Below, piece after piece: positions 3,294 to 21,560 of a stretch of DNA of 21,622 nucleotides. The stretch lies in the IMG/VR virus record IMGVR_UViG_3300017971_000824, positions 1 to 21,622 of that record; one strand, 5' to 3'. Position numbers and translations under genes: made by a program. Under the pieces are notes generated by a model. It ran no database searches. It was not told where the DNA came from and saw nothing but the letters and a program-made list of their open reading frames with translations. Each line of letters opens with the position of its first letter. The stretch's first letter is position 1. Origin of the DNA: a virus.

Positions 3294-4194
3294 TTTCAAT
3301 CTCCTTATAAAAACGATTTTGGAATGCACGTTCAAATTCATGCATCCTTTCAATAAACGATTTGAAACCCATTTGTTGACAGATTTCAAACCACCTTAGT
3401 ATATTTAAATTCGTTATTTTATAACGAATATTGTATTCTTTTAAATCAGGGTGAGGTAGTACAGTTAATCGTTTACAAAGTTCATATTGGTCTATATTAT
3501 CTGAAATTTTTTTGGATATTTTAGAGCTTGCTTCATTTTTTAAATAGGCTAATGCTCCTTTGGGTCCGATACCTTTTATTCCCGGCACCGTATCAGAAGA
3601 ACATCCAGCTAATGCTTTATACAATCCCCATTGTTCAGGGACAATACCATATTTACGTATGAACCATTTGCGATCTTTTTTCTTTTTATCGTCAGGACTA
3701 TATATAATAGTGTTTTCATCCAGACATTGATAAAGATCTTCATCTCTGGTTATGAGAACCTTATTTAAATATGGATATTTATTTACGTATAAAGCAAACA
3801 AATCATCAGCTTCATATCCTTCAAGCAATTCACTGGCAAAACCAAGCTGTTCACACATTTCCACAATTAATGGATATTCTTCATGCACTTTGTTTTTTGC
3901 TTCAGCTTGTTCATCAGTTAGATTACTGGTTCGTTCTTTATATCCAGCATATTCTTTTTTTCTAACGGAATCATGAAAAGAATCCCAAAGAATAATTGTG
4001 TTTACTGGATTAAATAGATTTGCCATTGACTTTAAGGTATTAAAAAACCCAAAGTAAATACCCGTTGCTTGATCTTCGTATGATAAACTGGAAACATTGC
4101 TACTATACTGTGATCGATAGACAAGGTGCTTTCCATCGATGAACATAATACATTCACCAGTTTCATCTTTTATTTTTAAATTATGTCTTTTCAT
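3286..4194 (-). CDS. FEN-type 5'-3' exonuclease (T4 RNase H / T5 D15 family)
   Basis: This 302-residue protein matches flap endonuclease/5'-3' exonuclease architecture. Metal-binding acidic residues occur in the expected order: D20 in FIDGKH, D71 in LWDS, E128/D130/D131 in GYEADD, D151/D153 in TRDEDL, and D201 in SSDTVPGIKGIGPKGA, which is also the helix-hairpin-helix DNA-binding region. YKER (85-88) matches the conserved arginine element. The likely role is removal of RNA primers and flaps on the lagging strand. The family usually begins almost directly with the first Asp motif, whereas this protein carries about 15 extra residues starting MKRHNLKIKD, a near copy of the start of the 56-residue protein at 14889-15059. 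The start overlaps the upstream stop as ATGA, and its AAAGG ribosome site lies inside the last codons of that gene. Confidence 0.88.
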   Translation of the reverse strand: MKRHNLKIKDETGECIMFIDGKHLVYRSQYSSNVSSLSYEDQATGIYFGFFNTLKSMANLFNPVNTIILWDSFHDSVRKKEYAGYKERTSNLTDEQAEAKNKVHEEYPLIVEMCEQLGFASELLEGYEADDLFALYVNKYPYLNKVLITRDEDLYQCLDENTIIYSPDDKKKKDRKWFIRKYGIVPEQWGLYKALAGCSSDTVPGIKGIGPKGALAYLKNEASSKISKKISDNIDQYELCKRLTVLPHPDLKEYNIRYKITNLNILRWFEICQQMGFKSFIERMHEFERAFQNRFYKEIENG

Positions 4195-4754
4195 TTGGAA
4201 GCAACCTTTAGTTTCATTCTCTTTTTGGGTTTGAGTTTTACTCTTTTAATTGTTTTAGTTTTGAGTGGCATTCTTTTAGGAACTGCATCAACCACTGTAC
4301 TATACTCTGATTTTTTGAAAAGGTTTCTCCAATTGTCAAAGGTAATCTGGTAATCCACATCTATATGCCAATGTGGATTACCATATTCTTTCAGTTGATT
4401 TAATCGATGTGTTAATTGATTCGCTAATCCAGTAGTGGCAACAAATGTTTCATCTGTAGCAAATCCCTCAATTTGTTCCATACCGGGACCGGAAGGATAA
4501 AAAAGAAGATCGTATATTCTATCCCATTTTGGTTCATCATTTACTCTTGTTTTTATATAAAGCTGAATAGAATAACGATCAACCCTTGATATTTTCATTA
4601 TCATTGGATCAAAGAAACTTAAATATGCTAAATCAGAATCGTCATGAACAATTGGAGTATCAGATGTAACAGTACGGGAAATAGTCATTCCTTTTTTAAT
4701 AATTGATTTGGTTTTTAACTTAGGTCGTTTTGCATTCAACTTTAACCGGGGCAT
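4191..4754 (-). CDS. Unknown protein with basic LKLK-type repeats at both ends
   Basis: I do not recognise this 187-residue protein. Its ends are unlike its middle. Residues 1-21 contain RLKLNAK and PKLKTK, and residues 161-187 contain PLKTKTIK, VKLKPKK and MKLKVASK. These are alternating Lys and hydrophobic residues that could form beta strands or bind nucleic acid. The core (about 25-155) is mixed alpha/beta with SFFDPMIMKI, WDRIYDLLFYP and PHWHIDVDYQITFDNW, and no catalytic motif I can name. AAAAGGAG precedes the ATG. The gene starts 18 bases after the ribonucleotide reductase stop and overlaps the FEN exonuclease start by ATGA, so the two are probably co-translated. A role with the exonuclease is plausible from coupling only. 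Confidence 0.7.
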   Translation of the reverse strand: MPRLKLNAKRPKLKTKSIIKKGMTISRTVTSDTPIVHDDSDLAYLSFFDPMIMKISRVDRYSIQLYIKTRVNDEPKWDRIYDLLFYPSGPGMEQIEGFATDETFVATTGLANQLTHRLNQLKEYGNPHWHIDVDYQITFDNWRNLFKKSEYSTVVDAVPKRMPLKTKTIKRVKLKPKKRMKLKVASK

Positions 4755-7139: not shown

Positions 7140-7798
7140 TACTTAATTCCTTTCTTTGATTCTTCTAATTTCTTTTGGTTCTCATAATATTTATCACGGT
7201 ATTCTAAACATTTTACCATGGATTTTTGTAATTCATCCTTTTGATTGAACATCATGGCAAGTGCTGCAACATCAACCCAATCTTCATCCCTTAAATTTTT
7301 TCTTAAATTTTCCAGCAATTCATCTTTGGAAAATTGTTCTGGATCAAAATTGCTATCGTACTTTTTATGTTTACTCATGATTTTGGAATAAACGATGTGA
7401 CAAAAAATATTAAAACAAGCAGTGATCGCTTCAATTTTAACACGATCTGGTGCAAGGACAAGGCCAGCTAATTTGGTCATGTTTTCAGATCGGAATAGAT
7501 CCTGAGTTTGAATACCAAAACCCAACAATTTATTACGTTCTGTTTGTCTACGAAGATTGAATTTTTGAAATGCCTGTCGTTTCATTTGAGATATTTTGTC
7601 CAGCAAATATCCTTTGGGATCATCACTGGTATAAAATTCAAATTCATTTTTTTCGTAGTTTGGTCTTAATTCTATTCCTAAGGGATGAAGGAATGTACGA
7701 TTTATTTCTTGAAGTATGCCGTTGCAATCCATGAAATTTAATAATTCTTCCCCCTGAAGTAACCGTTCGCTTGATTGATCCGTTAATACATTTTTCAT
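7139..7798 (-). CDS. Unknown phage protein, 219 residues
   Basis: The function is not recognised. The N-terminal half has NRTFLHPLGIELRP followed by a DDPKGY segment, a pattern I associate with small uncharacterised phage proteins. A basic, Gln/Arg-rich helix follows (KRQAFQKFNLRRQTERNKLL). The C-terminal half has helices around LAPDRVKIEAITACFNIFCH and DEDWVDVAALAMMFNQ, then a charged helical tail ending KKGIK, so the gene may join two units. The start at 7798 was chosen over an in-frame codon at 7831 because GGAGGAAGCACA lies immediately upstream. The stop overlaps the reductase start by one base, and its last codons (AAAGGAATTAAG) provide the reductase ribosome site. This arrangement suggests coupled expression with nucleotide metabolism. 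Confidence 0.75.
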   Translation of the reverse strand: MKNVLTDQSSERLLQGEELLNFMDCNGILQEINRTFLHPLGIELRPNYEKNEFEFYTSDDPKGYLLDKISQMKRQAFQKFNLRRQTERNKLLGFGIQTQDLFRSENMTKLAGLVLAPDRVKIEAITACFNIFCHIVYSKIMSKHKKYDSNFDPEQFSKDELLENLRKNLRDEDWVDVAALAMMFNQKDELQKSMVKCLEYRDKYYENQKKLEESKKGIK

Positions 7799-8075
7799 TG
7801 TGCTTCCTCCATAGTGTGTCTTCGATTTCAAGAGTACTTAATTTTAATACAAATCCTCTATCCTCTATTACCTGTATTTGTTTTGCCATCAGGATTCTAA
7901 CATCTCTGTTAATGAATCTTTTTGGATTTTTAATTACTCTTTTTCCCTGATTGCATTGAAGGCATTGATCAAATGATGATTTTAATTCTTTTATTATCAA
8001 CCCTTCCTTTATAAGTATCTGACGTTTAATACAGGCATCCGTGGATAAAGTGCATTTGAACTTCTTGCAAAACAT
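7644..8075 (-). CDS. Small Cys-rich (probable zinc-binding) protein with an unusually long 3' overlap
   Basis: A 143-codon frame beginning MFCKKFKC. Cysteines at 3, 8, 15, 38 and 41 (ending CLQCNQGKR) look like a zinc-binding domain in the first 45 residues, resembling small Cys-rich phage proteins of unknown function. AGGGGAAG precedes the ATG, 15 bases after the stop of the papain-like gene. The frame runs 155 bases into the next gene in another register. The tail past about residue 92 is basic (ending IKTKLRKK) and may be a genuine overlap or the result of a lost stop. A true short protein ending near 7800 cannot be excluded. The N-terminal domain is the well-supported part. Confidence 0.6.
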   Translation of the reverse strand: MFCKKFKCTLSTDACIKRQILIKEGLIIKELKSSFDQCLQCNQGKRVIKNPKRFINRDVRILMAKQIQVIEDRGFVLKLSTLEIEDTLWRKHNEKCINGSIKRTVTSGGRIIKFHGLQRHTSRNKSYIPSSLRNRIKTKLRKK

Positions 8076-8090
8076 AGCACTTCCCCTGTA

Positions 8091-8891
8091 TTATTTGGTT
8101 ATATAATTGGTAAGGTCTATTTCGTAATTAATTATTTTTTTAATGATAGGATACTTATACTGGAAGGAAGGGGTAATTTCCATTAAGGGCTGTTTGTGTA
8201 TTGGACATTCATGTACAGACATTAGTTTATTTTTAAAATAAGGTGTTGGATGAACACTATTACATAGAGGACAATACCGATAATAAAAAACAGGAAGATA
8301 ATCATCATAAAGAATAGTATACTTGGGACCAGTGCGTTCTTCATTCAAAGCACATCTAATTTCATCAGCTAAGTGATCTGGATTGGTGCCATAGAAATTG
8401 TGATGCCTTGCGCCAGCTTTAAAAAGAACTTTAGCAACGTATTCAGAACATACTAATTTTTTCCAGTGGAATATATGTGCTATATTGATAAGATGAAGGG
8501 GAATGCGATAAGCAGGGTAGATTTGACCAATATGTTTATTGGTCGCTAACATTGCTTTTAATCTTAAATTATCATTTATTTTATTCCAACGTCCAATTAA
8601 TATTCTTTTACCCTGATAGTGATAGAAAAGATTTTTACTTGTTAATGTCCAAAGACACTCAAGGGTGCATGATCCACCGGATAAAATACCCGTATGATTA
8701 AATTCGGATTCACGATCTGGATTTTGATTTTTTGTAACAAAGCGAATTCCTTTAGACAGTATGCTATCTCCAGCTACACAAAAAATGTCAAGAAGTTTTA
8801 AATCGATATTTAAGAAGTGCGAAGAATCAAATGAGAATACTTTTAGACCATCATACAATCCCGGTTCAATAGGTTGTGGCATTCCTGACAT
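8091..8891 (-). CDS. Permuted papain-like (YiiX / NlpC-P60 type) protein with C-terminal zinc ribbon
   Basis: A 266-residue protein. FNHTGIL with H66, an acidic LECLW segment (E78) and LVCSEYVAKVL with C148 reproduce the His-then-Cys order of circularly permuted NlpC/P60 (YiiX/YebB-like) cysteine hydrolases. Family members act on amide or acyl bonds; the substrate here is unknown. A second domain has CPLC at 207-210 and CPIH at 229-232, a probable zinc ribbon. No signal peptide is evident. I place the start at 8891 (MSGMPQP) because AAAGGA lies nine bases upstream, whereas the ATG at 8912 has no ribosome site. It follows the Rad50 C-terminal half directly. A hydrolase among recombination genes is unusual and could act on a host or modified protein. 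Confidence 0.6.
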   Translation of the reverse strand: MSGMPQPIEPGLYDGLKVFSFDSSHFLNIDLKLLDIFCVAGDSILSKGIRFVTKNQNPDRESEFNHTGILSGGSCTLECLWTLTSKNLFYHYQGKRILIGRWNKINDNLRLKAMLATNKHIGQIYPAYRIPLHLINIAHIFHWKKLVCSEYVAKVLFKAGARHHNFYGTNPDHLADEIRCALNEERTGPKYTILYDDYLPVFYYRYCPLCNSVHPTPYFKNKLMSVHECPIHKQPLMEITPSFQYKYPIIKKIINYEIDLTNYITK

Positions 8892-8900
8892 TACTTTAAA

Positions 8901-8906
8901 TCCTTT
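8901..8906 (-). promoter_or_regulatory. Ribosome-binding site deciding the start of the papain-like gene
   Basis: AAAGGA on the minus strand, nine bases before the ATG at 8891. The alternative ATG at 8912 has only CTACATCTA upstream, so the shorter protein is preferred. The alternative start overlaps the Rad50-half stop as TAATG, so weak re-initiation there is not excluded. Confidence 0.6.
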
Positions 8907-8911
8907 CTTCA

Positions 8912-9487
8912 TTAGATGTAGATTAAATTGTTAGCGGTTTCAATAAATCCTTCGATGTGCGTAACCATAATGATTTGAAGATTTAATAAATCAGCAATGT
9001 CAACAATTGTTTGTCCAACCAAGGGAACATATTTAGCAGAAACATTTTTAAATGGTTCATCAAGGATTAAAACCGCAGCAACATCGGGTTCTTCTAACGT
9101 TAGACATATCATGCGAAGCGCAAATGAGCATACATCAATTACGCCGCCACCGCAAGTATCTTTTCGGGGTTCTAATTTGATTCCTAAATGCTTGATAAAA
9201 AAGCGGATTTCAATCTGATCTCGTTTGGTATAGTCAAATTCTATCAGGAATTCATAGTCATCACCATACACGGTTTGTAGTGCCATGGTGGTTGTTTCTT
9301 CGATATACTTTTTTAGCTCTTTTTGGGTATCTTCTCCAACTTTTATCAGAATAGCTTTGCATAATTCCAGTTGTTCAATATACTTTTTCTCCTTTGCTAT
9401 GGCTATGACATTTTTTGAATACTTCTTTTTTGCAAGATTGTATTCAGTTTGTAACTTATTTAAACGATCTATGATTGTGTCTATCAT
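8912..9487 (-). CDS. Rad50/SbcC-like ATPase, C-terminal half (split gene)
   Basis: This 191-residue protein is only the C-terminal part of an SMC/Rad50 ATPase. Residues 1-66 are a short coiled coil. The signature-like loop CGGGVIDVCSFALRM spans 112-125, Walker B VLILDEPF spans 139-146, and VTH with H177 is the switch histidine. No Walker A and no CxxC hook are present; those are in the separate gene at 11925-12992. The signature reads GGGVID rather than the SGGE of canonical SbcC. Known Rad50 proteins pair Walker A of one head with the signature of the other, so this product should assemble with the N-terminal half and Mre11 to resect DNA ends. The start overlaps the stop of the small coiled-coil gene (ATGA). 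Confidence 0.85.
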   Translation of the reverse strand: MIDTIIDRLNKLQTEYNLAKKKYSKNVIAIAKEKKYIEQLELCKAILIKVGEDTQKELKKYIEETTTMALQTVYGDDYEFLIEFDYTKRDQIEIRFFIKHLGIKLEPRKDTCGGGVIDVCSFALRMICLTLEEPDVAAVLILDEPFKNVSAKYVPLVGQTIVDIADLLNLQIIMVTHIEGFIETANNLIYI

Positions 9488-9738
9488 AATATTCCATCTT
9501 TTTCTAAGCGATCTATGAGATCGTTAAATAGTTTACTGTTTTCCTTTTTGTTTTCTTCTGCTTCTTCTGTTAATTGTTTAATTAATTCTTCTCCTTCTTC
9601 AACTGAATTAACATCAAACGTTTCCTTTAATTGTTTAAGAAGGAATTCTTCTTGCACTTCAGCTCTGTCAGACATTGCTTTTTTCTGTTCAAGCATTTCT
9701 TTTATTTCAGTAATATTTTTTTCTTCCTCAGTTGGCAT
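9484..9738 (-). CDS. Small acidic coiled-coil protein, possible Rad50 accessory segment
   Basis: An 84-residue, strongly charged, helical protein with heptad-like spacing through KEMLEQKKAMSDRAEVQEEF and again from EEGEELIKQL to DLIDRLEKDG, broken by a short linker (FDVNSVEE). It has no cysteine. The ATG at 9738 is chosen over an in-frame TTG at 9750 because GGAG lies six bases before it. The stop overlaps the Rad50 C-terminal half as ATGA, so the two are likely made in step. Since that half has a short coil, this protein may contribute helix to the complex. That is inference; an unrelated regulatory role is equally open. Confidence 0.7.
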   Translation of the reverse strand: MPTEEEKNITEIKEMLEQKKAMSDRAEVQEEFLLKQLKETFDVNSVEEGEELIKQLTEEAEENKKENSKLFNDLIDRLEKDGIL

Positions 9739-9783
9739 GATGATCTCCAAATCGCCTTTGGGTTATCGAATATGTGGTTCTTT

Positions 9784-9829
9784 ACTGTATTCTTTATTTA
9801 GAATAGACTGTATTCTTTATTTAGAATAG
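9784..9829. repeat. Exact 23-bp tandem direct duplication across the 3' end of the ThyA-like gene
   Basis: Bases 9784-9806 and 9807-9829 are identical and adjacent; each copy contains CTTTATTTAGAATAG. The second copy in transcription order supplies the stop codon of the thymidylate-synthase-like gene. Because 23 is not a multiple of three, the duplication changes the reading frame at the C-terminus. Confidence 0.95.
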
Positions 9830-10550
9830 CAGCAATTGGTTCTATTTGATAGTCGTAAGCATGAAGACCTTGCGATGCAAAGGATAGTGGTCCCGGTTGA
9901 ATGTTTAGTTCGCCAGCTACGTATTCATTGAGCAATGTGAATCCACCCATGTTTTCAGGGAAACCAGCATAGAGATCCCATGAACGAAAAACAACGGATG
10001 TTAAAAGCATTTCATCTTTTATTTTAAAATCAATTCCACGAAAACAAGGTGATGTTAAACGATTAGCTTCATTAGTATAGGGAATATCATAATTGAAACC
10101 AGAATCAACATTACCAATGTTAATGTAGCAATGATTATTATGATATCCTTTTTCTTTGAAGTGTCGAATTACCCATTCAATAGGTGTTTCATCTGTCGGA
10201 TGCTCTGACATTCGGCCAAATTCAGAGTAGTGTTCTGTTCCATTAATCCATGAAGAATAACGGTAATGCTCATTTTTTGAAAGAAAGGGGTCCATCAGAT
10301 AGTTTGGAAAATAATCCTGTTCCAGCTTTTCATCAGTGGTTGTCGGAGGAATACCTTGTGGCATTATAGGTGCTAATGGTCTTGCATGAGGATTACGAAT
10401 GAATCCTGCTGCATAATAGAATTCCAATCGTTTTGATCCAGCAAAAGATCCTGCATCAATTTTGTATTCATGTCCATGATTCCACAGTTCCCAAAGTAAT
10501 GTGAAATAAGCATCGTTTAGATCTCTTGCTTCAATAAAAACAGGTTTCAT
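9798..10550 (-). CDS. Thymidylate synthase-like pyrimidine methylase/hydroxymethylase
   Basis: This 250-residue protein carries the ThyA signature in its C-terminal half: SPC with catalytic C169, FRSWD with R189/S190/D192 (phosphate and base contacts), GFPEN with N200 (equivalent of E. coli N177), and HAY with H230/Y232 (equivalents of H207/Y209). The Asn favours a dUMP-type substrate rather than dCMP. Two departures are visible. F170 replaces the His that usually follows the catalytic Cys, and the first 150 residues are diverged. It could therefore be a thymidylate synthase or a dUMP hydroxymethylase. The start at 10550 is supported by GGAGG immediately upstream and an ATGA overlap with the 44-residue gene. 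The C-terminal residues were altered by a 23-bp duplication. It supplies thymidine-type nucleotides alongside the reductase. Confidence 0.75.
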   Translation of the reverse strand: MKPVFIEARDLNDAYFTLLWELWNHGHEYKIDAGSFAGSKRLEFYYAAGFIRNPHARPLAPIMPQGIPPTTTDEKLEQDYFPNYLMDPFLSKNEHYRYSSWINGTEHYSEFGRMSEHPTDETPIEWVIRHFKEKGYHNNHCYINIGNVDSGFNYDIPYTNEANRLTSPCFRGIDFKIKDEMLLTSVVFRSWDLYAGFPENMGGFTLLNEYVAGELNIQPGPLSFASQGLHAYDYQIEPIAAILNKEYSLF

Positions 10551-10998: not shown

Positions 10999-11931
10999 TT
11001 ATTGCCCCCCTTTCTTCTCCATAACTTGAGCAATCATTTGTCGTAATATATTTTCAATTGCTGGATTTAATTCATGGTTATCTAATAGGTTCATTAAATT
11101 ATCAAGGAATTTAGCTGAATTTTTTATTTTGGTATTTCTTAATGAATCAACAAATTGTTTGATATCATGTTGTACAATATGTATTTTTTCATTTAGGTGT
11201 TTTTTGGATATAACTTCACTTGTAGGTTTAGCTGACTTTAACTTAATTTTTGTACGTAACATATTATCCAGATTAATCAGATTAACACAGGGAATATCTT
11301 TTTCTTCTATTGTTCTTCTTAAAATAACACCAGCATTGATAACAGTGGTATTTTTTCTTTTAAATTGATATTGACGGTGCCAATGACCACAAATAATTAA
11401 TTTGTATTTCTCCAAGAATTTATCGTCATCAATATTATAGGCAAAATCAGGATCATCAAGAATCCAAGAATTTTTACCAATTTGTTTGGTGTAGACAACC
11501 GCTTTATGTGTAAGTAAAAAAGGAGAATTATTACTGACTAATTCTTGATTCCAATCAATGTAATCCCATGCTATTCCATAATCTCTTTGGAATTGGGAGA
11601 TGTGTTTAACCTTTGGGCTGTTAGACCAAAGAACACCCAAAGAAGTGCGATTCCACATATCAAGGGAGTGATACATAAGATCATGATTACCCCAAGTAAA
11701 AAAGATAGGATGCTCAAGAGCTTGCAGAATGCTACCAAAACGTGTAAGAATTGAATTCGCAATAATTGGAACATTTAAGATATCTCCCGGTGTAATAATA
11801 GGACAGTTAAATTTATTGGCTATGCGTACAATTTCCTTCCATTTATTAAATTGAACTTCTACAATATCATCTACCCTTGCTATTGGATTCTTTCCGGTAA
11901 GATGACCATCCCCAACATGTAGAATTAGCAT
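10999..11931 (-). CDS. Mre11/SbcD-like nuclease (T4 gp47 type)
   Basis: This 310-residue calcineurin-like metallophosphoesterase has all the Mre11 motifs: HVGDGHL with D8 and H10, PGD with D50, GNHD at 81-84, LTH with H142, and CGHWH with H183/H185. A capping region follows and the C-terminus is helical (about 245-305), the expected Rad50-binding part. Mre11 trims DNA ends and opens hairpins with Rad50, and in T4 it feeds recombination-dependent replication. The ATG at 11931 (MLILHVGD) is chosen over an upstream in-frame codon at 11970 because GGAGG lies before it and the fold begins at once. It overlaps the Rad50 N-terminal half by seven bases (ATGCTAA). The canonical HxSDxH starts here as HVGDGH, a mild change. 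Confidence 0.88.
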   Translation of the reverse strand: MLILHVGDGHLTGKNPIARVDDIVEVQFNKWKEIVRIANKFNCPIITPGDILNVPIIANSILTRFGSILQALEHPIFFTWGNHDLMYHSLDMWNRTSLGVLWSNSPKVKHISQFQRDYGIAWDYIDWNQELVSNNSPFLLTHKAVVYTKQIGKNSWILDDPDFAYNIDDDKFLEKYKLIICGHWHRQYQFKRKNTTVINAGVILRRTIEEKDIPCVNLINLDNMLRTKIKLKSAKPTSEVISKKHLNEKIHIVQHDIKQFVDSLRNTKIKNSAKFLDNLMNLLDNHELNPAIENILRQMIAQVMEKKGGQ

Positions 11932-12992
11932 TTGTGTTCCTCCGTTATAGATCTTCCACAAGTGGGACAATAGCCTAACTCAAGAAGGTAATTATTCAAT
12001 TTTTTCTCTAATCGTTTGTATTCCTTTTTAGCAGCAATTTTATCCTTTTTGATTTGTTGGATTTGTTGGATTAGCTTGAATAATTGTTTTATTATTGAAG
12101 TAGTTTTGAAAAATTGATTGTGTTTCTCAATTATCAAATTTATGGAGTGAAGACGCTTGTTATAGATACGTTTATTATGAACTTCTATTTGTGCTTCTTT
12201 TAAGTGATTGAGTAAATCCTGTAAACCAGCAATTATTGCTTTTTTACCTTTGATTGATTTAATTCCACTTTCAATGGTTGTAATATCTTTTAATCGATCA
12301 TTTATTATTTTAATATTGATTCTATTTTTACGACATTGATAGATTTTATCTAATATTATTCTTAATTCTTTATTAGTATTAGTAAGATCATAATATTGAT
12401 CTATTTCGGCTTTTATATATAGAGCATCATCCATAAATCGATTAACATTTTGCAATCGATCTATAGTTTCCTTATGTTCCTCATTATTTTTACTGATTCG
12501 TTTAATATTGGATTTTGATTCAGTTATCTTCGTTTTAACTTCTTTGATTAATAGTTCTTGATCTTCCATTCCAGTAGAAGCATTTAATAATTTAGTTGCA
12601 CCACCACCAGTTTGAAGAACAAGAAAATGAGGTTCTAATTGTCGTTGCCAATTGATATCCTTTAGTGGAAATAGTTCTTTGATAGGCGCAAGGGTATCTG
12701 TACCGAATGCTTTTAATAATTCTCCATTAAGATAGTATCGGCGCTTTTCCCTTTTAACACGACTACCATTAGCATGTACGATTTCAATGCTAAGAGGATC
12801 TTTATTGTGTTTATTTTGAAATATGGATTCACCACTACGGGGTTGATTATCAAGAATCAATTTCAATGCTCTGATGATTGCTGACTTACCAGCATCAGTA
12901 TCACCAAGAATGACATTGACTCCCGGCTGTAACTTAATATGTAGGTCTTTATGAATTTGAAAATTGTGGAGTATTATTTCACTTATCAACAT
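11925..12992 (-). CDS. Rad50/SbcC-like ATPase, N-terminal half ending at the zinc hook (split gene)
   Basis: This 355-residue protein starts like Rad50 (LISEIILHNFQIHKDL) and has Walker A GDTDAGKS at 30-37, then a Q-loop region (INWQRQLEPHF near 120). From about 140 to 340 it is a long coiled coil. It ends just after CPTCG at 342-345, the zinc hook through which Rad50 arms join. There is no signature loop or Walker B; those are encoded at 8912-9487. The hook at the very C-terminus shows that the gene stops where the arm would normally turn back. I prefer the ATG at 12992, with GGGTG upstream, over a GTG at 13001. It overlaps the preceding gene by 14 bases and Mre11 by seven. Confidence 0.88.
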   Translation of the reverse strand: MLISEIILHNFQIHKDLHIKLQPGVNVILGDTDAGKSAIIRALKLILDNQPRSGESIFQNKHNKDPLSIEIVHANGSRVKREKRRYYLNGELLKAFGTDTLAPIKELFPLKDINWQRQLEPHFLVLQTGGGATKLLNASTGMEDQELLIKEVKTKITESKSNIKRISKNNEEHKETIDRLQNVNRFMDDALYIKAEIDQYYDLTNTNKELRIILDKIYQCRKNRINIKIINDRLKDITTIESGIKSIKGKKAIIAGLQDLLNHLKEAQIEVHNKRIYNKRLHSINLIIEKHNQFFKTTSIIKQLFKLIQQIQQIKKDKIAAKKEYKRLEKKLNNYLLELGYCPTCGRSITEEHKC

Positions 12993-13407
12993 CGGGTTCA
13001 CCCAAAATCATAAAATGAGATATTCTTTTAGACCATCCAGTTTTATCAGTGTAATAATATTTATTTAAAAGGTAGTGTTGTAGAAAAGCCCAAGAATTGA
13101 CACAATCATGAATTACATAACTGCTATTGCGTTCAAAAGTCATTATTTGTATTGACTTTATTGGTGGTAAATATTCATTGATCTCAAACCATTTGTTTTT
13201 TTCATTTACAAATGGAGCTTTATTCCTTTGTTCCAGCAATATTGTCAATGCTTCTTCAGGGGTATGTGTTTTTTCACTAACTTTATTAATAAAAAACTTA
13301 TCATAGGTTGCAGTATGTTGATTCTTCTGATTCGATTTTATTATTGTCTTCTTTTTTTTCAAATTCAAACGTTGTGGTTTGCTCTTTAGCTTCAGTTTTT
13401 TTACCAT
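12979..13407 (-). CDS. Unknown protein with LKLK-type basic N-terminus
   Basis: A 142-residue protein of unknown function. Residues 1-24 are a Lys-rich leader (MVKKLKLKSK, then RLNLKKKK) of the type shared by the FEN, 56-residue and DUF3150-like proteins. The remainder contains HTPEEALTILLEQ, NKWFEINEYLPP and SYVIHDCVNSWAFLQHYLL, probably alpha/beta, with no motif I recognise. GGGAG lies seven bases before the ATG, so the start is well supported even though the first 107 bases overlap the preceding gene in another frame. It precedes and overlaps the Rad50 N-terminal half. Confidence 0.65.
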   Translation of the reverse strand: MVKKLKLKSKPQRLNLKKKKTIIKSNQKNQHTATYDKFFINKVSEKTHTPEEALTILLEQRNKAPFVNEKNKWFEINEYLPPIKSIQIMTFERNSSYVIHDCVNSWAFLQHYLLNKYYYTDKTGWSKRISHFMILGEPDVDK

Positions 13408-14888: not shown

Positions 14889-15059
14889 TTACCCACGATG
14901 ACCATACCATTGAATATCTTTTAATTTGGTTTGATGAAAACAACCTAATGGATCAATATCACAATTAGGCCATGCAGGACACCCAAGATGTTCATCCCAA
15001 TCATCATCTTTAGGATAAATAGGTTCTTCTTCTTTTATTTTTAGTTTATATCTTTTCAA
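14889..15059 (-). CDS. Small Cys-rich protein with LKIK leader, 56 residues, TTG start
   Basis: A complete 56-codon frame with a TTG start. GGAG lies eight bases upstream, inside the end of the RecA gene. The first ten residues, MKRYKLKIKE, almost repeat the start of the FEN exonuclease (MKRHNLKIKD). An acidic stretch follows, then C27, C33, C40 and H42 in GCPAWPNCDIDPLGCFH, which could form one small zinc site. The C-terminus is KDIQWYGHRG. It sits between RecA and a 142-residue unknown with no long gap. Function unknown; the shared leader and the ribosome site are the evidence that it is real. Confidence 0.65.
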   Translation of the reverse strand: MKRYKLKIKEEEPIYPKDDDWDEHLGCPAWPNCDIDPLGCFHQTKLKDIQWYGHRG

Positions 15060-15063
15060 TGAT

Positions 15064-16188
15064 TTATCTCCATTTTGGAGGACGTTTAATTTCTGCTTCT
15101 TTAAGTAATTGATTCCAATGTTCCTGCAATCGATCTTTTAACTTGTCAGCAGTTTTAGGATCTGCAATTGCTCTTTTAATTAATTCACTTCTATAGATCT
15201 TTTTATCGTCCCAAATGAGATAGCTACCTGATTTTTCAAAACCACCTTTATCCCAAAGGAAGTTTACGGCTGATCCAAAATTATCTACTCCGTAACCGTG
15301 TAGTATATTAAAATTCATTTTATTATAACGAGAACCAGTTTTATTTTTATCAATCGTAACTTCAACTTCAATACCTTGATTGATTCCACTGTCCGTTGTG
15401 ATTTTATTAGATTCACGCAACCAATAAATGATACTGGCATAATGATCTAATGCTTTTCCACCGGCTCTTGTTAATTGAGGTCCGAACATAACGCCAAAGT
15501 TAGACCTAACTTGGGAAACAATAAAAAGCAGGACATTGGAGTTATTAACCGATTGAATACATGTTCGGAACAGTTGTGATAAAACTCTGGCTTTACCACC
15601 ACCATAGTCTTGTTTACCAACACCTTTTTTCTCAATATGTTTTATTTCTCTGGCATCTGATAAGGAATCCAATGAATCTAATACATAAAGAATAAGATCA
15701 TATTTATCAGATTCTTTTTTCGTAATGTTCATAATGTTTGTATAGAAATCTTCAACCAGTTTTGAATGTTGGAAATCATCCTTTTTCTTTTTCCAATCAG
15801 GAAGTCTTTCACGTAACCCGACAATTTTATCTAATGGCATATTGAAATTCATTGCCAGATCCATATCAAATGCTGATTCAGGTTCATCGTAGTATATCTT
15901 GACTTTTTTACCCATTTTATTATGCCATTCATACCAAACGGCATTTACCGCTTCACAAGCCATTAGAGTTTTGCCAGTAGAGTAATCACCAACTGAATTG
16001 ATTACTCTACCGACAGGATAGCCCAAATTCACATCGTTTGTTAATGCCATATTCAGAATCCAAGATCCTGTTGATACAAATGATGTGAATTGCTTGGGCA
16101 TTGGTTTTAGCAATGGTTTTTGCAATTGTTTTCGTAATGATGATTTTTTCCCACTCGTACTGGTACGCAGATTCAGTTTTTTAGGCAT
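15064..16188 (-). CDS. RecA/UvsX-like recombinase
   Basis: A 374-residue RecA-family strand-exchange protein. Walker A GDYSTGKT is at 67-74, the catalytic Glu region YYDEPES at 99-105, Walker B LILYVLDSLDS at about 165-174, and the L2/ATP-sensing region SQVRSNFGVMFG with RAGGKALDHY at 225-250. The N-terminal 30 residues are highly basic (MPKKLNLRTS, then KSSLRKQLQK) and longer than in many RecA proteins, with weak likeness to the LKLK leaders in this window. It should form filaments on ssDNA and drive recombination-dependent replication with the gp32-like and UvsY-like proteins directly upstream. AAGGGAT precedes the ATG; the gap from the ssDNA-binding gene is 33 bases. Confidence 0.92.
   Translation of the reverse strand: MPKKLNLRTSTSGKKSSLRKQLQKPLLKPMPKQFTSFVSTGSWILNMALTNDVNLGYPVGRVINSVGDYSTGKTLMACEAVNAVWYEWHNKMGKKVKIYYDEPESAFDMDLAMNFNMPLDKIVGLRERLPDWKKKKDDFQHSKLVEDFYTNIMNITKKESDKYDLILYVLDSLDSLSDAREIKHIEKKGVGKQDYGGGKARVLSQLFRTCIQSVNNSNVLLFIVSQVRSNFGVMFGPQLTRAGGKALDHYASIIYWLRESNKITTDSGINQGIEVEVTIDKNKTGSRYNKMNFNILHGYGVDNFGSAVNFLWDKGGFEKSGSYLIWDDKKIYRSELIKRAIADPKTADKLKDRLQEHWNQLLKEAEIKRPPKWR
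15068..15071 (-). promoter_or_regulatory. Ribosome-binding site for the TTG-started 56-residue gene
   Basis: GGAG on the minus strand within the last codons of the RecA gene, eight bases before the TTG at 15059. No ATG is available in that frame before the conserved-looking leader, so this site decides the start. Confidence 0.6.
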
Positions 16189-16221: not shown

Positions 16222-17430
16222 TTACAGATCAGCCATTGCTTTTTCATACATGTCATCAATGATCATGGGAATCGCTTCCATTTGATCTATGTGAGTAGCA
16301 TCAGCATAACCATTGGATTTGCACCACATTTTAAAAGAAATAGCTGATTTGTCTTCCAATTCAGCACGTAGGGCATCCAATTCTTCAATCAATTCTTCTT
16401 CAGGATCTTTTTGTCGGATAGGTTTAGAAGTGGATTTATTGGAAAAGGTTCTACGACCCTGAACTGGTTGTTCCGGTACTTCTCCAGCTTCAGCATCAAC
16501 ATTGCCAGAACCATCATGCATCATTTCATCTTCTGCTTGCATGTCTTCCTTAATTTCTTCATATTCAGGAATATTAAGAAAATATTCAACAATATTATCA
16601 AACCCTGCTTCTTCAGCAGCAGAAACGATTGAATCAAGTTTTTCCAATACTTCATCAGGGATGGGATTTTCACGATCAATCAATTCAAAACCAGTGTAAT
16701 CGGGGAAATCACCTTGTTGAACAATACTGAATCCAACAGTGCGTCCCTCTCCACCTTCCTGAACATCAGAAATGTCCAAAGTTGATCGTGTGATTTTGTT
16801 ACGTGCCTTGTTTTGAATTTCTTTATGAAATTTGGATTTAGGAGAAGCCCACAATTGAAAAGTGTAATCAGGGGCATCTCCTTCAAGCAATTCTTTTGAT
16901 CGTTCCCAAAGCAGATAACAGCAACGATCAACAGGATAGAGTTTTTTGATATCATCTGTAACAGCACCATTGATTCGATATAACATTTGTTGTTTTTCAC
17001 ATCGATAACAACGTGCTTTAGATGTACCTTTGGCATAACGCAGCATACAAACGTATGCATTCCCAGCAAAACCAACACCAAAATGAACAGGCAATTCTTT
17101 AAAGTATGGAATATTGGGATTGAATGAAATTGGAAGTACTTCAACAAATTTATCCCCTCTTGCAGTGGAAAAATCAACGATTCCATGTTCTTCCATTAAT
17201 TCTTGATTGAAAATGGGTTTTCCAGCAGAGGATATTTTGGATCTTTTTTCACGATCTTCATATGATTGATCTAATACTTCTTGTTTGGTACGTTTGAATT
17301 TACTACGAATATCACCAGTTGAAGAAGTAGATGCACCTGTGGTTTTCAATCGATTTTTCAATCCAGAGAGTTTGCTCGTACCAGTTTTTGCGGCTTTCTT
17401 TGCTGCCATACGTTCTTTCAATGTTGCCAT
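16222..17430 (-). CDS. gp32-like single-stranded DNA-binding protein
   Basis: This 402-residue protein has the plan of T4 gp32 relatives: a basic N-terminal cooperativity-type region (1-65), a core (about 85-245) with VEVLPISFNP and FGVGFAGNAYVCMLRYAKG, and a Cys/His cluster with H116, C128, C141, C144, C170 and C171 around ARCYRCEKQQ and VDRCCYLLWE that could hold the zinc ion typical of gp32. An acidic region follows (about 285-335). Unlike gp32, the protein then continues with a basic patch and a final helical domain (EEELIEELDALRAELEDK onward), an extension for unknown partners. It should coat ssDNA for RecA, helicase and nuclease traffic. AAAGGAA precedes the ATG. The genes before and after it are the UvsY-like protein and RecA. 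Confidence 0.72.
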   Translation of the reverse strand: MATLKERMAAKKAAKTGTSKLSGLKNRLKTTGASTSSTGDIRSKFKRTKQEVLDQSYEDREKRSKISSAGKPIFNQELMEEHGIVDFSTARGDKFVEVLPISFNPNIPYFKELPVHFGVGFAGNAYVCMLRYAKGTSKARCYRCEKQQMLYRINGAVTDDIKKLYPVDRCCYLLWERSKELLEGDAPDYTFQLWASPKSKFHKEIQNKARNKITRSTLDISDVQEGGEGRTVGFSIVQQGDFPDYTGFELIDRENPIPDEVLEKLDSIVSAAEEAGFDNIVEYFLNIPEYEEIKEDMQAEDEMMHDGSGNVDAEAGEVPEQPVQGRRTFSNKSTSKPIRQKDPEEELIEELDALRAELEDKSAISFKMWCKSNGYADATHIDQMEAIPMIIDDMYEKAMADL

Positions 17431-17445
17431 GATTCAATTCCTTTC

Positions 17446-17931
17446 TTAATATTCAGGTTCTTGTGATTGATTCATTACCCTTAATTTAGGTTTATTTTTA
17501 TATTTTGATCCTTTACTGACAGTTGGTTCGGAATAGTAATTGTTTAACCATAGTTCAGCCAAGATACGAATCATCATACCTCTTTGCCGACAGGTATCAA
17601 CGGCTGATCGTAAATCTTCTTCTCTACGCAATGCTACTTTGTATCGTTTGAATGCATTTATGTATTCCTTTTCTCCTTTCACTAATCCAAAAACAAGTTT
17701 ATCTGTAGGTTTACCTGTGATTCCATATATCTCTGCATTTTGCCTGATGATTTCAGCTTGCTCCGATTCAACGTATTCCAATTCACGTTTAGCATCTTTA
17801 GTTTCAGCAGCAGCAATAGCTAATTTTTTACCATACTTTCGCATTAACCCCGGATTTCGATCTGCTTCCAATTCAAGATTAAATCGATCAATACTGAAAT
17901 CATCATTAGCTTCATCATCAAATAAACCCAT
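17446..17931 (-). CDS. UvsY-like recombination mediator candidate
   Basis: A 161-residue, mostly helical protein. The N-terminal acidic segment (DDEANDDFSID), the ADRNPGLMRKYGKKLA helix, a long charged helix (about 45-70), a GxKxGxPxD-like turn, then YINAFKRYKVALRREEDLRSAV and RGMMIRILAELWLNNYYS give the order seen in UvsY, which loads UvsX onto gp32-coated DNA. The position between a DUF3150-like gene and the gp32-like and RecA genes strengthens the call. There is no catalytic motif. The C-terminus carries KNKPKLRVM, mildly like the basic tails elsewhere. GGGGGTC precedes the ATG, just after the previous stop. The identification rests on topology and context, not on strong sequence identity. 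Confidence 0.5.
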   Translation of the reverse strand: MGLFDDEANDDFSIDRFNLELEADRNPGLMRKYGKKLAIAAAETKDAKRELEYVESEQAEIIRQNAEIYGITGKPTDKLVFGLVKGEKEYINAFKRYKVALRREEDLRSAVDTCRQRGMMIRILAELWLNNYYSEPTVSKGSKYKNKPKLRVMNQSQEPEY

Positions 17932-17939
17932 TTGACCCC

Positions 17940-18890
17940 CTAAATAAAACTCACTTTACGTTTGAATGTTTCAATAGATTTGTCTAATTCCGTTTTAACT
18001 TCACCCAATTGTTTATGGACAACTTTGGTGAGATCAATATCAGTGCGAAGATCTTCTGGTGTTATATCTTCCATGATTGTTTTAGCCTTTTCGATTATAC
18101 TCTCTAATTCAGTATCATGAAAGATATTTTTTGATTGAAATGATGTAAAGAAATCATCAATTTTTCCAATAGCTTTCGGACTCAATCGTTTCTTTTCACC
18201 ATCCAGTTTGCCAGTTAATGTGTCGGTAAGATGGGTAACGATTTCAGAGAATCCTTCACGCAATGCCAGAATTCCCATTTCCCTTGTTTCACCCATCAGC
18301 TTTTTGAACTTACCAAGTTCTTCTTTTCGCATATCGTCATTGATATGAGAGGGAATAGTAAGATCAAAGAATCGATAACTGATGTTGAATTTAGATCGTA
18401 TATCGGTAGGATAATCACTTGGATCAAAGTATTTATAGATTCCCAATTCTGATTCTGCTTCTTTGATATACTTTTTATATTGTTTGCTGAATTCATTAAC
18501 ATCTTTCTTCAGCTTGGAAATATATCCTTCAAGAATATCCTTAATCAAATTAACACGATCATTGGGAATAAAATGAATGCCTTTGATTGGGAATGGAAGG
18601 GATGCTTCCCAAACGAAAGCTCTTGCTTCAGATATCGTGGAATTAATATCCTGAAGATAAGATCGATCAATCAGGCTTTTTGTCGCACGTACCCATTCTT
18701 TTTCTGCTTTCGGAGTCAAAAGAGATGCAATCTTTTTCGGAAGATTCTTTCTGGCTTGCCAAGAATGCGTTTCAAACTGGAGCAATGTACCCATATCGAA
18801 GATATTGAGTTCATCTAATCCTGCATTTATTTCACGTTTGATTTTCAGAGATTTCGGATTGACTTTTAATTTCATTCTTTTAATTGCCAT
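17940..18890 (-). CDS. DUF3150-like helical phage protein with basic tags at both ends
   Basis: A 316-residue, mainly helical protein. The middle (about 33-180) has THSWQARKNLP, ISEARAFVWEASLPFPIKGIHF, a run of helices and DPSDYPTDIRSKFNISYRFF. This resembles DUF3150-type proteins, which in bacteria often sit near AAA+ ATPases; here an AAA+ gene lies four genes upstream. The N-terminus holds two basic motifs (KRMKLKV and SLKIKR within residues 4-19), and the C-terminus is TFKRKVSFI, close to the tail of the adjacent gene's product (DLKRKITFK). AAAGGAG precedes the ATG. The function is unknown; the family assignment is tentative. Confidence 0.6.
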   Translation of the reverse strand: MAIKRMKLKVNPKSLKIKREINAGLDELNIFDMGTLLQFETHSWQARKNLPKKIASLLTPKAEKEWVRATKSLIDRSYLQDINSTISEARAFVWEASLPFPIKGIHFIPNDRVNLIKDILEGYISKLKKDVNEFSKQYKKYIKEAESELGIYKYFDPSDYPTDIRSKFNISYRFFDLTIPSHINDDMRKEELGKFKKLMGETREMGILALREGFSEIVTHLTDTLTGKLDGEKKRLSPKAIGKIDDFFTSFQSKNIFHDTELESIIEKAKTIMEDITPEDLRTDIDLTKVVHKQLGEVKTELDKSIETFKRKVSFI

Positions 18891-18908: not shown

Positions 18909-19391
18909 TCATTTGAAGGTTATTTTACGTTTGAGATCAATTACATTAACTTCAATCTTTGGTTCATTATCGGTTTCTGATTTATTTTCATAAGAAACTG
19001 ATTCGGTACTACTGGTAAAGTTTAATGGAACATCTGAACCTATTAAAGCACCAGCAAATTGAAAATCAATTATACAATAACTTTGTGACGAATTAATTTC
19101 GGTATTAAAAAATGGATCTTTAATATTTGGGTATTCGTATTTAATGTTAATTGAAAGAAATGCTCCATAAAGAATATAATCTGAATCAATTATTAAATTG
19201 CCAAATTTTCCAGTTAACTTTTGAATTTCTACAGTAATTGAATTTTTTAAACTTTTAGTGGTAAAACTTATGATAATTGAACCATCATAATTTGATTGAT
19301 CACAATTTAATTCATTTAAATCATGAAAATATATTGTATTTAGTTTTTTGTTTTCAGGAACAAAACTAACCACAAATTGGTTTATAGACAC
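18909..19391 (-). CDS. Unknown beta-rich protein with LKRK-type C-terminal tail
   Basis: A 160-residue protein, probably mostly beta sheet (VVSFVPENKKL, NYDGSIIISF, SITVEIQKLTG, LIIDSDYILYGAFLSINIKYEY), with a Ser/Glu/Asn-rich linker (about 130-148) and a tail, KIEVNVIDLKRKITFK. I chose the GTG at 19391 because AAGGGGT lies nine bases upstream; an in-frame codon at 19427 would overlap the previous gene further. Even so it overlaps the DUF2997 gene by 26 bases. The tail resembles that of the next protein (TFKRKVSFI). No function can be assigned; the context ties it to the Ycf46/Ycf35/DUF2997 genes. Confidence 0.6.
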   Translation of the reverse strand: MSINQFVVSFVPENKKLNTIYFHDLNELNCDQSNYDGSIIISFTTKSLKNSITVEIQKLTGKFGNLIIDSDYILYGAFLSINIKYEYPNIKDPFFNTEINSSQSYCIIDFQFAGALIGSDVPLNFTSSTESVSYENKSETDNEPKIEVNVIDLKRKITFK

Positions 19392-19578
19392 GGTTTTCAA
19401 CCCCTTCTTTGGATTTCTCAAAAGCAATCGGCAAAAGTGTTTGCTCCATCAATTGACCAACAGCCGCTTTAAGAAATTCAGATTCCTCAACACATTTCAT
19501 TCCTATATATCCTTCAGTTGTAACTTTGATTTCAGCCGTGTCATTCATTACATCCATTATAATCTTTTTCTGTGCCAT
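19366..19578 (-). CDS. DUF2997-family small protein
   Basis: A 70-residue protein. Its beta hairpin start (KKIIMDVMNDTAEIKVTTEGYIGMKC) followed by VEESEFLKAAVGQ matches the DUF2997 layout, in which a GxxGxxC turn precedes a helix. DUF2997 proteins are often encoded next to DUF1257 (Ycf35) proteins, exactly as here, where the DUF1257 gene ends 27 bases upstream. The last 25 residues (TLLPIAFEKSKEG onward) extend beyond the usual short family length. AAGGAG lies before the ATG. The biochemical role of the family is unknown to me. Confidence 0.7.
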   Translation of the reverse strand: MAQKKIIMDVMNDTAEIKVTTEGYIGMKCVEESEFLKAAVGQLMEQTLLPIAFEKSKEGVENRVYKPICG

Positions 19579-19605
19579 TGATAGTCTCCTTATTGAATAA
19601 TTGAT

Positions 19606-20031
19606 TTATGCATAAACAACTAATCGAACACGATCATCCATTACTTCTTCTTTACATGTAAAACCTTTTAATTTGGCAGCATACTTACCTTGTTCAATGG
19701 CAACCGCTTGAGACAATTTCCATGCATTCGGTCCAAGCTTATTGAGTAGTCTTTTATCCCAAAAATCCCAAATGAGTTTATAATTCTTTTTATTCATTGG
19801 ATCTCTGATTACACCAACTTCATATTCTGCACCGGGAACACCGATTGCATGAATACATTTGCCAAGATCATCTGTTGTCATTCCATCAGGCATGGGATAA
19901 TCACCAACATGCCGACCAAACCATTTATAATTCTTTTGATTCTCTTTCCATACCAATCCTAATCGTTTAACTGCACTTTTTAGACACTTTAGATTTTGTA
20001 TTTCGACTTCAATGGTAGCAACGTGACTCAT
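19606..20031 (-). CDS. DUF1257 (Ycf35-like) protein
   Basis: This 141-residue protein opens with MSHVATIEVEIQNLKCLKSAVKRLG, the hallmark of DUF1257/Ycf35 proteins of plastids, cyanobacteria and other bacteria. The C-terminus (KLSQAVAIEQGKYAAKLKGFTCKEE, then RLVVYA) also fits, with a helix followed by short strands. The middle includes KWFGRHVGDYPMPDG and a Lys-rich KKNYKLIWDFW. No enzymatic motif is visible. The order AAA+ (Ycf46-like), Ycf35-like, DUF2997 suggests one functional unit. AAAGGAG precedes the ATG, 26 bases after the AAA+ stop. The molecular function is unknown. Confidence 0.82.
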   Translation of the reverse strand: MSHVATIEVEIQNLKCLKSAVKRLGLVWKENQKNYKWFGRHVGDYPMPDGMTTDDLGKCIHAIGVPGAEYEVGVIRDPMNKKNYKLIWDFWDKRLLNKLGPNAWKLSQAVAIEQGKYAAKLKGFTCKEEVMDDRVRLVVYA

Positions 20032-20057
20032 TGTTAATCTCCTTTCTGTTGTTTGAA

Positions 20058-21560
20058 TTATTGGAGTGTCATTGCTCGTTTACCTTTAACTTTAAGTGAT
20101 TTACTTTTTTTCGGAATGTAAGACGTATTGGCATGTCTGTATATCTTGGCTTTTTCTTTGATTGATTGAAGTTCCTTTTCTCTGTATTGTGCCAATACTG
20201 GAATTTGTTGCAATGCTGCCATTATACTGCTTTCATAATGACTGTCTTTAGCCAATTGTTCAATTTCAGCACCGGACCATTTTTCTTTCCAAAGATTTTC
20301 ACAGAATTGATCATCATTGGGTAAATCACTTTTGAATTGTTTATTCTTAATATTAATGATCTGTTTAACTTCAGTAGGATTGGGTAAATCAACAAAGAAG
20401 ATTGTATCCCAGCGTCCCAATCGAAGGAATTCAGGCGGCAATATATCTAAGTTATTTGCGGTGGCAACAATGACGGCATCGGATCTTCTTTCCTGCATCC
20501 ACGTAAGAAAATGTCCCAATATCCCTTCACTGGTTTCATGCGCCATTCCCCTTCCAGTTCCACCAAATGCCTTTTCAATTTCGTCAATGCAGATAACCGC
20601 TTTGCCGAATCCATCAATGATCTTTGTGGCACGTCTGGTCTTAGCTTCAGTTTCTCCAACGATACCCCCTTTCAATCCACCAACATCCAATACAATTCCC
20701 GGCCATTCCAATAATGAAGAAAGACATTTAACTGCAAGGGATTTGCCAGTACCTTGAAAACCAACTAATAGAACAGATCGAACTTTAGGTTTGACTGAAT
20801 CAGGATTTTTAAATGGTTCAATTCGTTTTTTCCAGTAGTTTTTAAATTCTTCCAAACCACCTAATGATTCAATTGGTTCGGGTTGAAAGAAATCCATGAA
20901 TCCTGTTTGTCGAATGATATAACGTTTACGTTCAAGGATTGTCATGAGATCAAATTTGCGATGTTTAACAGCAGAATAGGCAAGTACGTTTTCAATTTCT
21001 TCGTAGCTCATTCCCTGACAAGCATCAGTGATTTCGGAGGTAACACTATAATTGGAAGCATTGAATTCTTCTTTTGTCCATTTACCACTGTTCAGCATAT
21101 CATTAGCTGATTCAATAACTGCTTCTTGAATACCAGTGGCAATCGTTACGATTTCATCACGGCTGGGTAATTCAAAATCAAGGACAGGAATGAATTCTTT
21201 GATATCAATGGGGATCTGTTTGGAATCTGTACCAACTATCACCATACATGTTTGATTGGCTTTAAGTAGTTTGTACGCATCCAAAAGCATTTGGGTAATA
21301 AGATTATTATCCAAGAATTGGTCGTAACGTTCAAGAATGAAAACAGTACGTGGTTTATTGATTGCTGCTTCAATAATAGAGAGTTGATCACATTCTTGAT
21401 CTTCATTATAATTGACTTCATTAACGATTATACCTCTATTAATGTTCCAGTAAACAAGATCAAAACCATTTGCTTTGATTGACCTGATTGCCCGTTTAAT
21501 TTCATTTGTTTCAATGAACAGCATTCCATAGCCAGCTAAAAGATAATGTGTTAGATCCAT
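20058..21560 (-). CDS. Ycf46-like AAA+ ATPase
   Basis: This 500-residue protein matches the Ycf46 family: a degenerate N-terminal AAA-like domain (about 1-215, with RTVFILERYDQFL near 71-83), a linker, and an active AAA+ module. Family signatures are ESLGGLEEFKNYW (231-243), Walker A GFQGTGKS (267-274), LKGGIVGETE (296-305), Walker B VICIDEIEKAFGG (322-334), FLTWMQER (351-358), sensor-1 ATANN (366-370), and LPPEFLRLGRWDTIFFVDLP (374-393) with arginine-finger candidates R380 and R383. Proteins of this class probably remodel partner proteins, but targets are unknown. The C-terminus adds a basic tail with SLKVKGKRAMTLQ, like tails of nearby proteins. AAAGGAG precedes the ATG. It heads the DUF1257/DUF2997 genes and lies upstream of RecA. 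Confidence 0.85.
   Translation of the reverse strand: MDLTHYLLAGYGMLFIETNEIKRAIRSIKANGFDLVYWNINRGIIVNEVNYNEDQECDQLSIIEAAINKPRTVFILERYDQFLDNNLITQMLLDAYKLLKANQTCMVIVGTDSKQIPIDIKEFIPVLDFELPSRDEIVTIATGIQEAVIESANDMLNSGKWTKEEFNASNYSVTSEITDACQGMSYEEIENVLAYSAVKHRKFDLMTILERKRYIIRQTGFMDFFQPEPIESLGGLEEFKNYWKKRIEPFKNPDSVKPKVRSVLLVGFQGTGKSLAVKCLSSLLEWPGIVLDVGGLKGGIVGETEAKTRRATKIIDGFGKAVICIDEIEKAFGGTGRGMAHETSEGILGHFLTWMQERRSDAVIVATANNLDILPPEFLRLGRWDTIFFVDLPNPTEVKQIINIKNKQFKSDLPNDDQFCENLWKEKWSGAEIEQLAKDSHYESSIMAALQQIPVLAQYREKELQSIKEKAKIYRHANTSYIPKKSKSLKVKGKRAMTLQ

Follow-up and report, generated by a model that had tools for sequence, protein, structure and literature searches.

The 21,622-base IMG/VR virus record IMGVR_UViG_3300017971_000824, analyzed here over its whole length (the window), carries a gene block on its minus strand that includes a Ycf46-like AAA+ ATPase, a DUF1257/Ycf35-like protein, a DUF2997 protein, and a DUF3150 protein. 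We judge the balance to tip modestly toward the view that this block represents a module found in phages and plasmids, in which a shared docking tag marks the partners that the ATPase would remodel. The key observation is that the AAA+ and DUF3150 proteins, which are not homologous, share a C-terminal motif of the form R-[K/R/A]-Φ-x-Φ (where Φ is a hydrophobic residue).

After clustering at 60% identity, we compared the last 12 residues of 31 AAA+ and 21 DUF3150 proteins with those of 1,217 other open reading frames (ORFs) of phages bearing the module. The R-[KRA]-Φ core is present in 19 of the 31 AAA+ and 18 of the 21 DUF3150 tails versus 6.8% of the other ORFs, and the longer R-[KRA]-Φ-x-Φ is present in 10 and 15 of them, respectively, versus 1.2% of the background. 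The DUF1257 and DUF2997 proteins of the same loci, which serve as internal controls, show the core in 0 of 30 and 1 of 31 cases. The two tails also resemble each other within a genome, as in the AAA+/DUF3150 pairs THRKIDLN/PIRKFDLEA (L023), SGRKLKLDD/GRKFKLEDED (L112), GRKMEL/GRKFNLSED (L115), GQRKIA/GQRKFAA (L019), and SRAFGTE/SRAISFEEE (L105). Across 23 loci, this likeness is greater within than between genomes (mean BLOSUM62 scores of 6.0 versus 3.0; permutation p = 1e-4), although shared ancestry of the loci can inflate the difference. In an alignment of 14 DUF3150 homologs with a mean column identity of 25%, the arginine of the tag (R311) is the sole invariant residue besides M1.

The plasmid and satellite phage cases and those of a second phage family, here termed phage family X, were examined after the motif had been framed and constitute a fairer test of it. 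In the Vibrio rumoiensis IncC plasmid, the AAA+ protein ends in GSGRKLAIED and three unrelated proteins from downstream genes of that run have the endings PGKRKIILD, KDKRKIILD, and RDKRKIILD; two of these three have signal or transmembrane segments, as predicted by eye. Endings of the type R[KR]Φ occur in 9 of 230 ORFs from the IncC stretches and the Candidatus Manganitrophus plasmid region, and four of these are the IncC AAA+ protein and its three KRKIILD neighbors. A Pseudomonas plasmid couples an AAA+ protein ending in GGRALELG to two others, one having a hydrophobic segment and ending in SGRKLFLD, the other small, resembling a lipoprotein, and ending in ARRIIL. In the isolated phages without DUF3150, family X is present instead, with the tails GRNRKLKL, RRGRKITI, TRRAVKL, and RKRRLRLS, although not in phage SM1. 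In the Streptococcus satellite phage Javan368, the AAA+ protein ends in TRKVLV and a 573-aa (amino acid) protein ends in NRKIKI. A further nonhomologous tagged partner, with a hydrophobic N-terminal segment and the ending ERKITFNKE, is encoded in G002, a near relative of the window. On account of these plasmid, family X, and satellite cases, no fewer than five unrelated kinds of partner bear the motif. The motif is absent from a related Nostoc plasmid AAA+ protein that has no DUF1257 or DUF2997 gene beside it. A genome-wide code was rejected, as the strict motif is concentrated on the AAA+ proteins and module partners and the remaining matches are chance-like. The original prediction had pointed to tag-like tails at the ends of the block as what the ATPase might recognize. 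The core enrichment, the IncC tails, and the within-genome pairing give the tag idea strong comparative support.

An alternative reading is that the tails are basic-hydrophobic segments binding membranes or nucleic acids, which would colocate the module proteins at the membrane or on replicating DNA with no protein receptor involved. The order of the motif, basic and then hydrophobic, agrees with this, as do the hydrophobic N-terminal segments of several plasmid partners and of the G002 protein ending in ERKITFNKE, and the lysine-rich N termini of several replication proteins of the window phage. We nevertheless hold it to be unlikely: the motif is short and strict in its position, in many cases has Asp or Glu after it (KRKIILD, GRKLKLDD, and RKFDLEA), and is lineage specific in the pairing of AAA+ protein and partner, all of which fit better with a protein receptor.

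The genes of the block and its tags, all on the minus strand, are as follows.

20058-21560, minus strand: Ycf46-like AAA+ ATPase of 500 aa, matching Pfam AAA (1.8e-18, residues 263-391) and phrog_8638 (9e-79, residues 2-471)
20061-20081, minus strand: C-terminal tag KRAMTLQ of the AAA+ protein (tail ..KGKRAMTLQ), from the R-[KRA]-Φ motif comparison
19606-20031, minus strand: DUF1257/Ycf35-like protein of 141 aa with the N terminus MSH, 45% identical over 120 residues to the protein of locus L003
19366-19578, minus strand: DUF2997 protein of 70 aa with an invariant GxxC (Pfam DUF2997, 18.9 bits against a cutoff of 24.1)
18909-19427, minus strand: orphan β-rich ORF outside the conserved core, with the tail ..DLKRKITFK (LKRKITFK at 18912-18935)
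17940-18890, minus strand: DUF3150 protein with the tag FKRKVSFI (17943-17966) and the lysine-rich N terminus RMKLKVNPKSLKIK (Pfam, 24.0 bits against a cutoff of 24.9)

Gene and profile analyses confirmed that the AAA+, DUF1257-like, and DUF2997 genes are consecutive and followed by the β-rich ORF and the DUF3150 gene; the tails KRAMTLQ, KRKITFK, and KRKVSFI are as originally described. Each of the AAA+, DUF1257, DUF2997, and DUF3150 genes has a clear Shine-Dalgarno sequence ahead of it. The listed TTG start of the β-rich ORF overlaps the DUF2997 gene, and a GTG 12 codons inward looks like the better start. This ORF has no homolog in any module locus compared, and membership in phage family X was rejected for lack of a significant match. 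The conserved core consists of AAA+, DUF1257, DUF2997, and DUF3150 and does not include the β-rich ORF. DUF3150 is the conserved fourth gene of the module, even though it lies outside the range of 18909-21560 within which the block had been delimited.

The linkage of these genes recurs widely. A scan of viral sequences with DUF1257 recovered 20 loci on 18 further records. AAA+, DUF1257, and DUF2997 are present at all those with sufficient flanking sequence, and so is DUF3150 except in the SM1-like locus, in varying gene order. Rhizobium phage RHph_I4 encodes an AAA+ protein, a protein of unknown function, and annotated DUF1257 and DUF2997 proteins, and a similar arrangement is seen in Pseudomonas phage SM1, Agrobacterium phage JP1, Aeromonas phage HJ05, and Rhodobacter phage RcKickapoo. 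At L003, a protein with VRLGDxVSLGDYV repeats of the left-handed β-helix type lies between the AAA+ and DUF1257 genes (700-1449). A genome scan found DUF1257 together with DUF2997 on 19 contigs of metagenome-assembled genomes (MAGs) from Nitrospirota, Syntrophaceae, Armatimonadetes, Planctomycetia, Pyrinomonadaceae, Patescibacteria, Verrucomicrobiaceae, a Lokiarchaeota bin, and others. Almost all of them also carry AAA+, and the majority carry DUF3150; mobile elements may account for many of these contigs. In such metagenomic sequences, gene starts are approximate, with C termini unaffected, and whole-contig calls are longest ORFs, spurious ones included. Among plasmids, the AAA+ family has matches in 858 records. 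In the IncC and IncA plasmids examined, the genes after AAA+ encode a DUF1257-like protein of 130 aa and then DUF2997, the above Pseudomonas plasmid also carries the module, and on the Candidatus Manganitrophus plasmid all four genes already bear annotations and stand in the order seen in the window. The linkage is decisively established in genomes beyond the window, in phages, MAG contigs, and plasmids alike. What is new here is the shared C-terminal tail; the four-gene order had already been annotated on the Manganitrophus plasmid. Judging by title and abstract, none of the papers found on DUF1257, DUF2997, Ycf35, and Ycf46 seems to concern this module in phages or plasmids, and no link to the module was established for the function of IncC protein 053 (PMC10954446).

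The family assignments of the small proteins rest on their homologs. The DUF1257-like protein of the window retrieves no Pfam match by itself (E > 0.1), and its assignment is supported by the homologs aligned to it from RHph_I4 (37.1 bits) and SM1 (24.6 bits), both of which exceed the Pfam cutoff of 22.2. Similarly, DUF2997 homologs from SM1 (33.2 bits) and RHph_I4 (25.5 bits) exceed their cutoff, as does the DUF3150 homolog in L100 (34.1 bits); the window DUF3150 protein is 27% identical over 316 aa to that of L003, and homology within the family is full length. In alignments of 17 homologs each, S2 and H3 are invariant in DUF1257 and G26 and C29 are invariant in DUF2997. Sequence searches found no relative of DUF1257 with a solved structure. 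The literature searched yielded no established function for DUF1257 (Ycf35), DUF2997, or DUF3150 and no mention of DUF3150.

In cyanobacteria, the DUF2997 and DUF1257 genes stand side by side in a duf2997-ycf35-fed7 cluster (PMC4284462). The module shares these two families with the cyanobacterial and plastid Ycf46/Ycf35/DUF2997 proteins but differs in being fixed beside AAA+ and DUF3150 or other tagged partners, in residing on phages and plasmids, and in lacking a ferredoxin. That cluster (PMC4284462), together with the invariant GxxC of DUF2997, could be taken to mean that the module is a related system for the maturation of a cofactor or iron-sulfur cluster, in which the AAA+ protein acts on a metalloprotein. 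However, the neighborhoods examined have no recurring ferredoxin or metalloprotein gene, and the alignment of 17 DUF1257 homologs shows no conserved set of cysteines, which leaves this the most improbable of the explanations weighed here.

Analysis of the sequence and of a structural model indicates that the AAA+ protein comprises a degenerate, D1-like AAA domain (residues ~1 to 200) followed by an active, D2-like AAA domain (residues ~230 to 470). Walker A, Walker B, sensor 1, and the arginine finger are present in the D2 domain of the window protein and of most of the 29 aligned members, for some of which the Walker B region is gapped in the alignment. The D1 domain lacks Walker A and carries NFHxFL-like motifs, which we take to be reminiscent of Ycf46; no model named Ycf46 turned up in the profile libraries used. 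The pore loop is mostly Leu-Val, with an aromatic residue in some members. A model of the L100 AAA+ protein (pLDDT, 89.6; pTM, 0.70), obtained as a fusion to DUF1257 by stop codon read-through, spans residues 211 to 763 of p97, from D1 to D2 (Z score, 25.7; root mean square deviation, 5.0; 429 aligned residues). Its residue 1 aligns with p97 residue 211, so the N-terminal double-psi barrel is absent. By sequence and model, the protein has the two tandem AAA domains and the ATP-competent D2 of the p97-like class, and we predict that it is a two-tier ring protein of the p97/Cdc48 type, dead in D1 and competent for ATP in D2. In locus L013 (10867-13353), some 850 bases separate two ORFs that together make up the AAA+ gene, as though an intron or insertion had interrupted it. 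The predicted two-tier architecture would be common to p97/Cdc48, Rix7/NVL, and Drg1, from which the module protein differs in lacking the double-psi barrel and a Walker A in D1 and in its mostly Leu-Val pore loop.

AAA+ unfoldases are well known to recognize C-terminal tags, as in ssrA/ClpX, and given a p97-like two-domain ATPase, the tail might be a degradation signal that marks proteins, among them the AAA+ protein itself, for unfolding by this ATPase and delivery to a host protease. We regard this as very unlikely: no linked protease gene is found in the annotated plasmid and phage neighborhoods examined, and the tag has remained fixed on one constant partner over long evolution, which fits better with regulation or assembly than with disposal.

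The module consists of the Ycf46-like AAA+ protein, DUF1257, DUF2997, and at least one partner, usually DUF3150 in phages and MAG contigs and others elsewhere. Under the docking-tag reading, a shared receptor, probably the DUF1257/DUF2997 proteins, which we consider probable adaptors, or the AAA+ ring itself, would bind the C-terminal docking tag and gather partners and ATPase, and ATP-driven cycles would then remodel the tagged partner. As such a tag would be portable, different proteins would bear it in different lineages: DUF3150, phage family X, plasmid proteins for which signal or transmembrane segments are predicted, and probably the β-rich protein of the window. More tentatively, and at somewhat less than an even chance, the whole may be a hitherto undescribed client-tag system of phages and plasmids in which a p97-like AAA+ protein with DUF1257/DUF2997 adaptors reads a portable R-K-Φ-x-Φ tag on interchangeable, unrelated clients of each element, in the manner of Vps4/ESCRT-III, these clients being helical DUF3150, β-rich phage proteins, and membrane proteins of conjugative plasmids.

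Several observations weigh against docking and remodeling. The tail statistics assume independent sequences, some of the data tested had already served to define the motif, and about one-third of the AAA+ proteins lack a strict match. The mostly Leu-Val pore loop, in place of an aromatic one, means that threading is not assured. No DUF1257 or DUF2997 was found in Javan368 despite its shared tail, so the receptor may be neither of these, with the AAA+ ring or a host factor remaining a candidate. AlphaFold docking models were built as read-through fusions in which stop codons are read as residues. The AAA+ tail is disordered and undocked in the AAA+-DUF1257 fusion (pLDDT, <50), and the DUF3150 tail in the DUF1257-DUF2997-DUF3150 model is of intermediate confidence, with a pLDDT of about 50 to 80, and forms no strand (pTM, 0.49). 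Neither model shows docking, although the DUF3150 tail gives no decision either way. The AAA+ remodeling machine envisaged in the original prediction fits the predicted p97/Cdc48-like two-domain architecture. A fold search with the three-protein model gave no PDB match at E ≤ 0.001, and its BFVD matches were only DUF3150 relatives, including a protein so named.

The genes following the module in the window, none of them belonging to the core, are as follows.

17446-17931, minus strand: UvsY-like protein (phrog_231, 1.6e-4)
16222-17430, minus strand: possible SSB-type protein, as first called (weak PHROG match of unknown function; conserved in G002)
15064-16188, minus strand: UvsX/RecA recombinase (phrog_97, 4e-42; Pfam RecA, 8e-24)

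From this layout it had been proposed that the machine remodels the phage recombination proteins UvsY, SSB, and RecA. Beyond the adjacency itself in the window and G002, one may cite for this the lysine-rich N termini of RecA in both, the C-terminal EGRKIV of the G002 RecA, and another DUF3150 in a CobS-Bet-Exo-VWA locus of the IncC plasmid. The adjacency was not seen in the other contigs with the module, as judged by local hidden Markov models that are narrow and may miss distant recombinases, and the tagged partners elsewhere are not recombinases, some on plasmids appearing to be membrane anchored. On these grounds, recombination proteins as the targets are not supported, and we deem the proposal decidedly improbable.

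Proteins with lysine/hydrophobic N-terminal tracts are encoded on the minus strand of the window among its replication genes at 3286-4194, 4191-4754, 12979-13407, 14889-15059, 15064-16188, and 17940-18890, the one at 4191-4754 also having such a tract at its C-terminal end. Examples are MKRHNLKIK, MPRLKLNAKRPKLKTK, MVKKLKLKSK, MKRYKLKIK, MPKKLNLR, and RMKLKV, and similar starts are seen in G002 (RecA, MKRVKLKL; another protein, MKRLKLK). They possibly constitute a second, N-terminal tag family. These KLKLK-type tags are kept apart from the C-terminal motif because they occur only in the window and its near relatives and because their register is different. The window also encodes an SbcC-like ATPase seemingly in two separate halves (8912-9487 and 11925-13001, minus strand), the N-terminal one ending in a zinc hook-like CPTCGR. 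In L002, a near relative, a family A DNA polymerase is apparently spread over three ORFs (6602-9985), the first ending in ..RINRKVSFG, like the module tag.

A parallel in principle to the proposed docking-tag module is Vps4/ESCRT-III, where a helical partner with a short C-terminal motif (MIM) is likewise paired with a classic AAA ATPase; the module tag differs in that the ATPase bears it too, as do unrelated proteins, and the three-protein model had no ESCRT-III match under the above PDB threshold. The V. rumoiensis IncC plasmid has a second AAA+ locus (L096, 38527-45993) encoding a CobS/MoxR-type ATPase, a 301-aa protein, Bet, Exo, DUF3150, and a VWA protein. It resembles the module in placing DUF3150 beside an AAA+ protein on a mobile element but differs in its AAA+ class, its VWA partner, and the lack of a tag on its DUF3150. 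Two proteins of this locus have acidic Phe-Phe tails (..DDGDLFF and ..EQEDHFF), and Bet ends in Tyr-Tyr (..EGHYY). With IetA of the IetAS defense system, the similarity is of the AAA domain only (8e-21 for the IncC AAA+ protein and 1e-8 for that of the window); there is no subtilase partner IetS, and the other module proteins tested have no PADLOC match. A defense system was rejected, as PADLOC gives generic AAA matches only. In kind, the module would be an AAA+ remodeler with a short client motif, comparable by analogy to Vps4/ESCRT-III or to tag-reading unfoldases but with components of its own.

The module occurs in IncC plasmids, a group known to carry drug resistance, and in tailed phages that infect many different hosts. 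Through the shared tag, this unexplained cluster becomes directly addressable by binding, the candidates being a single short peptide and three possible receptors. If true, the docking-tag reading would also provide a handle on the Ycf46 and Ycf35 proteins of plastids and cyanobacteria.

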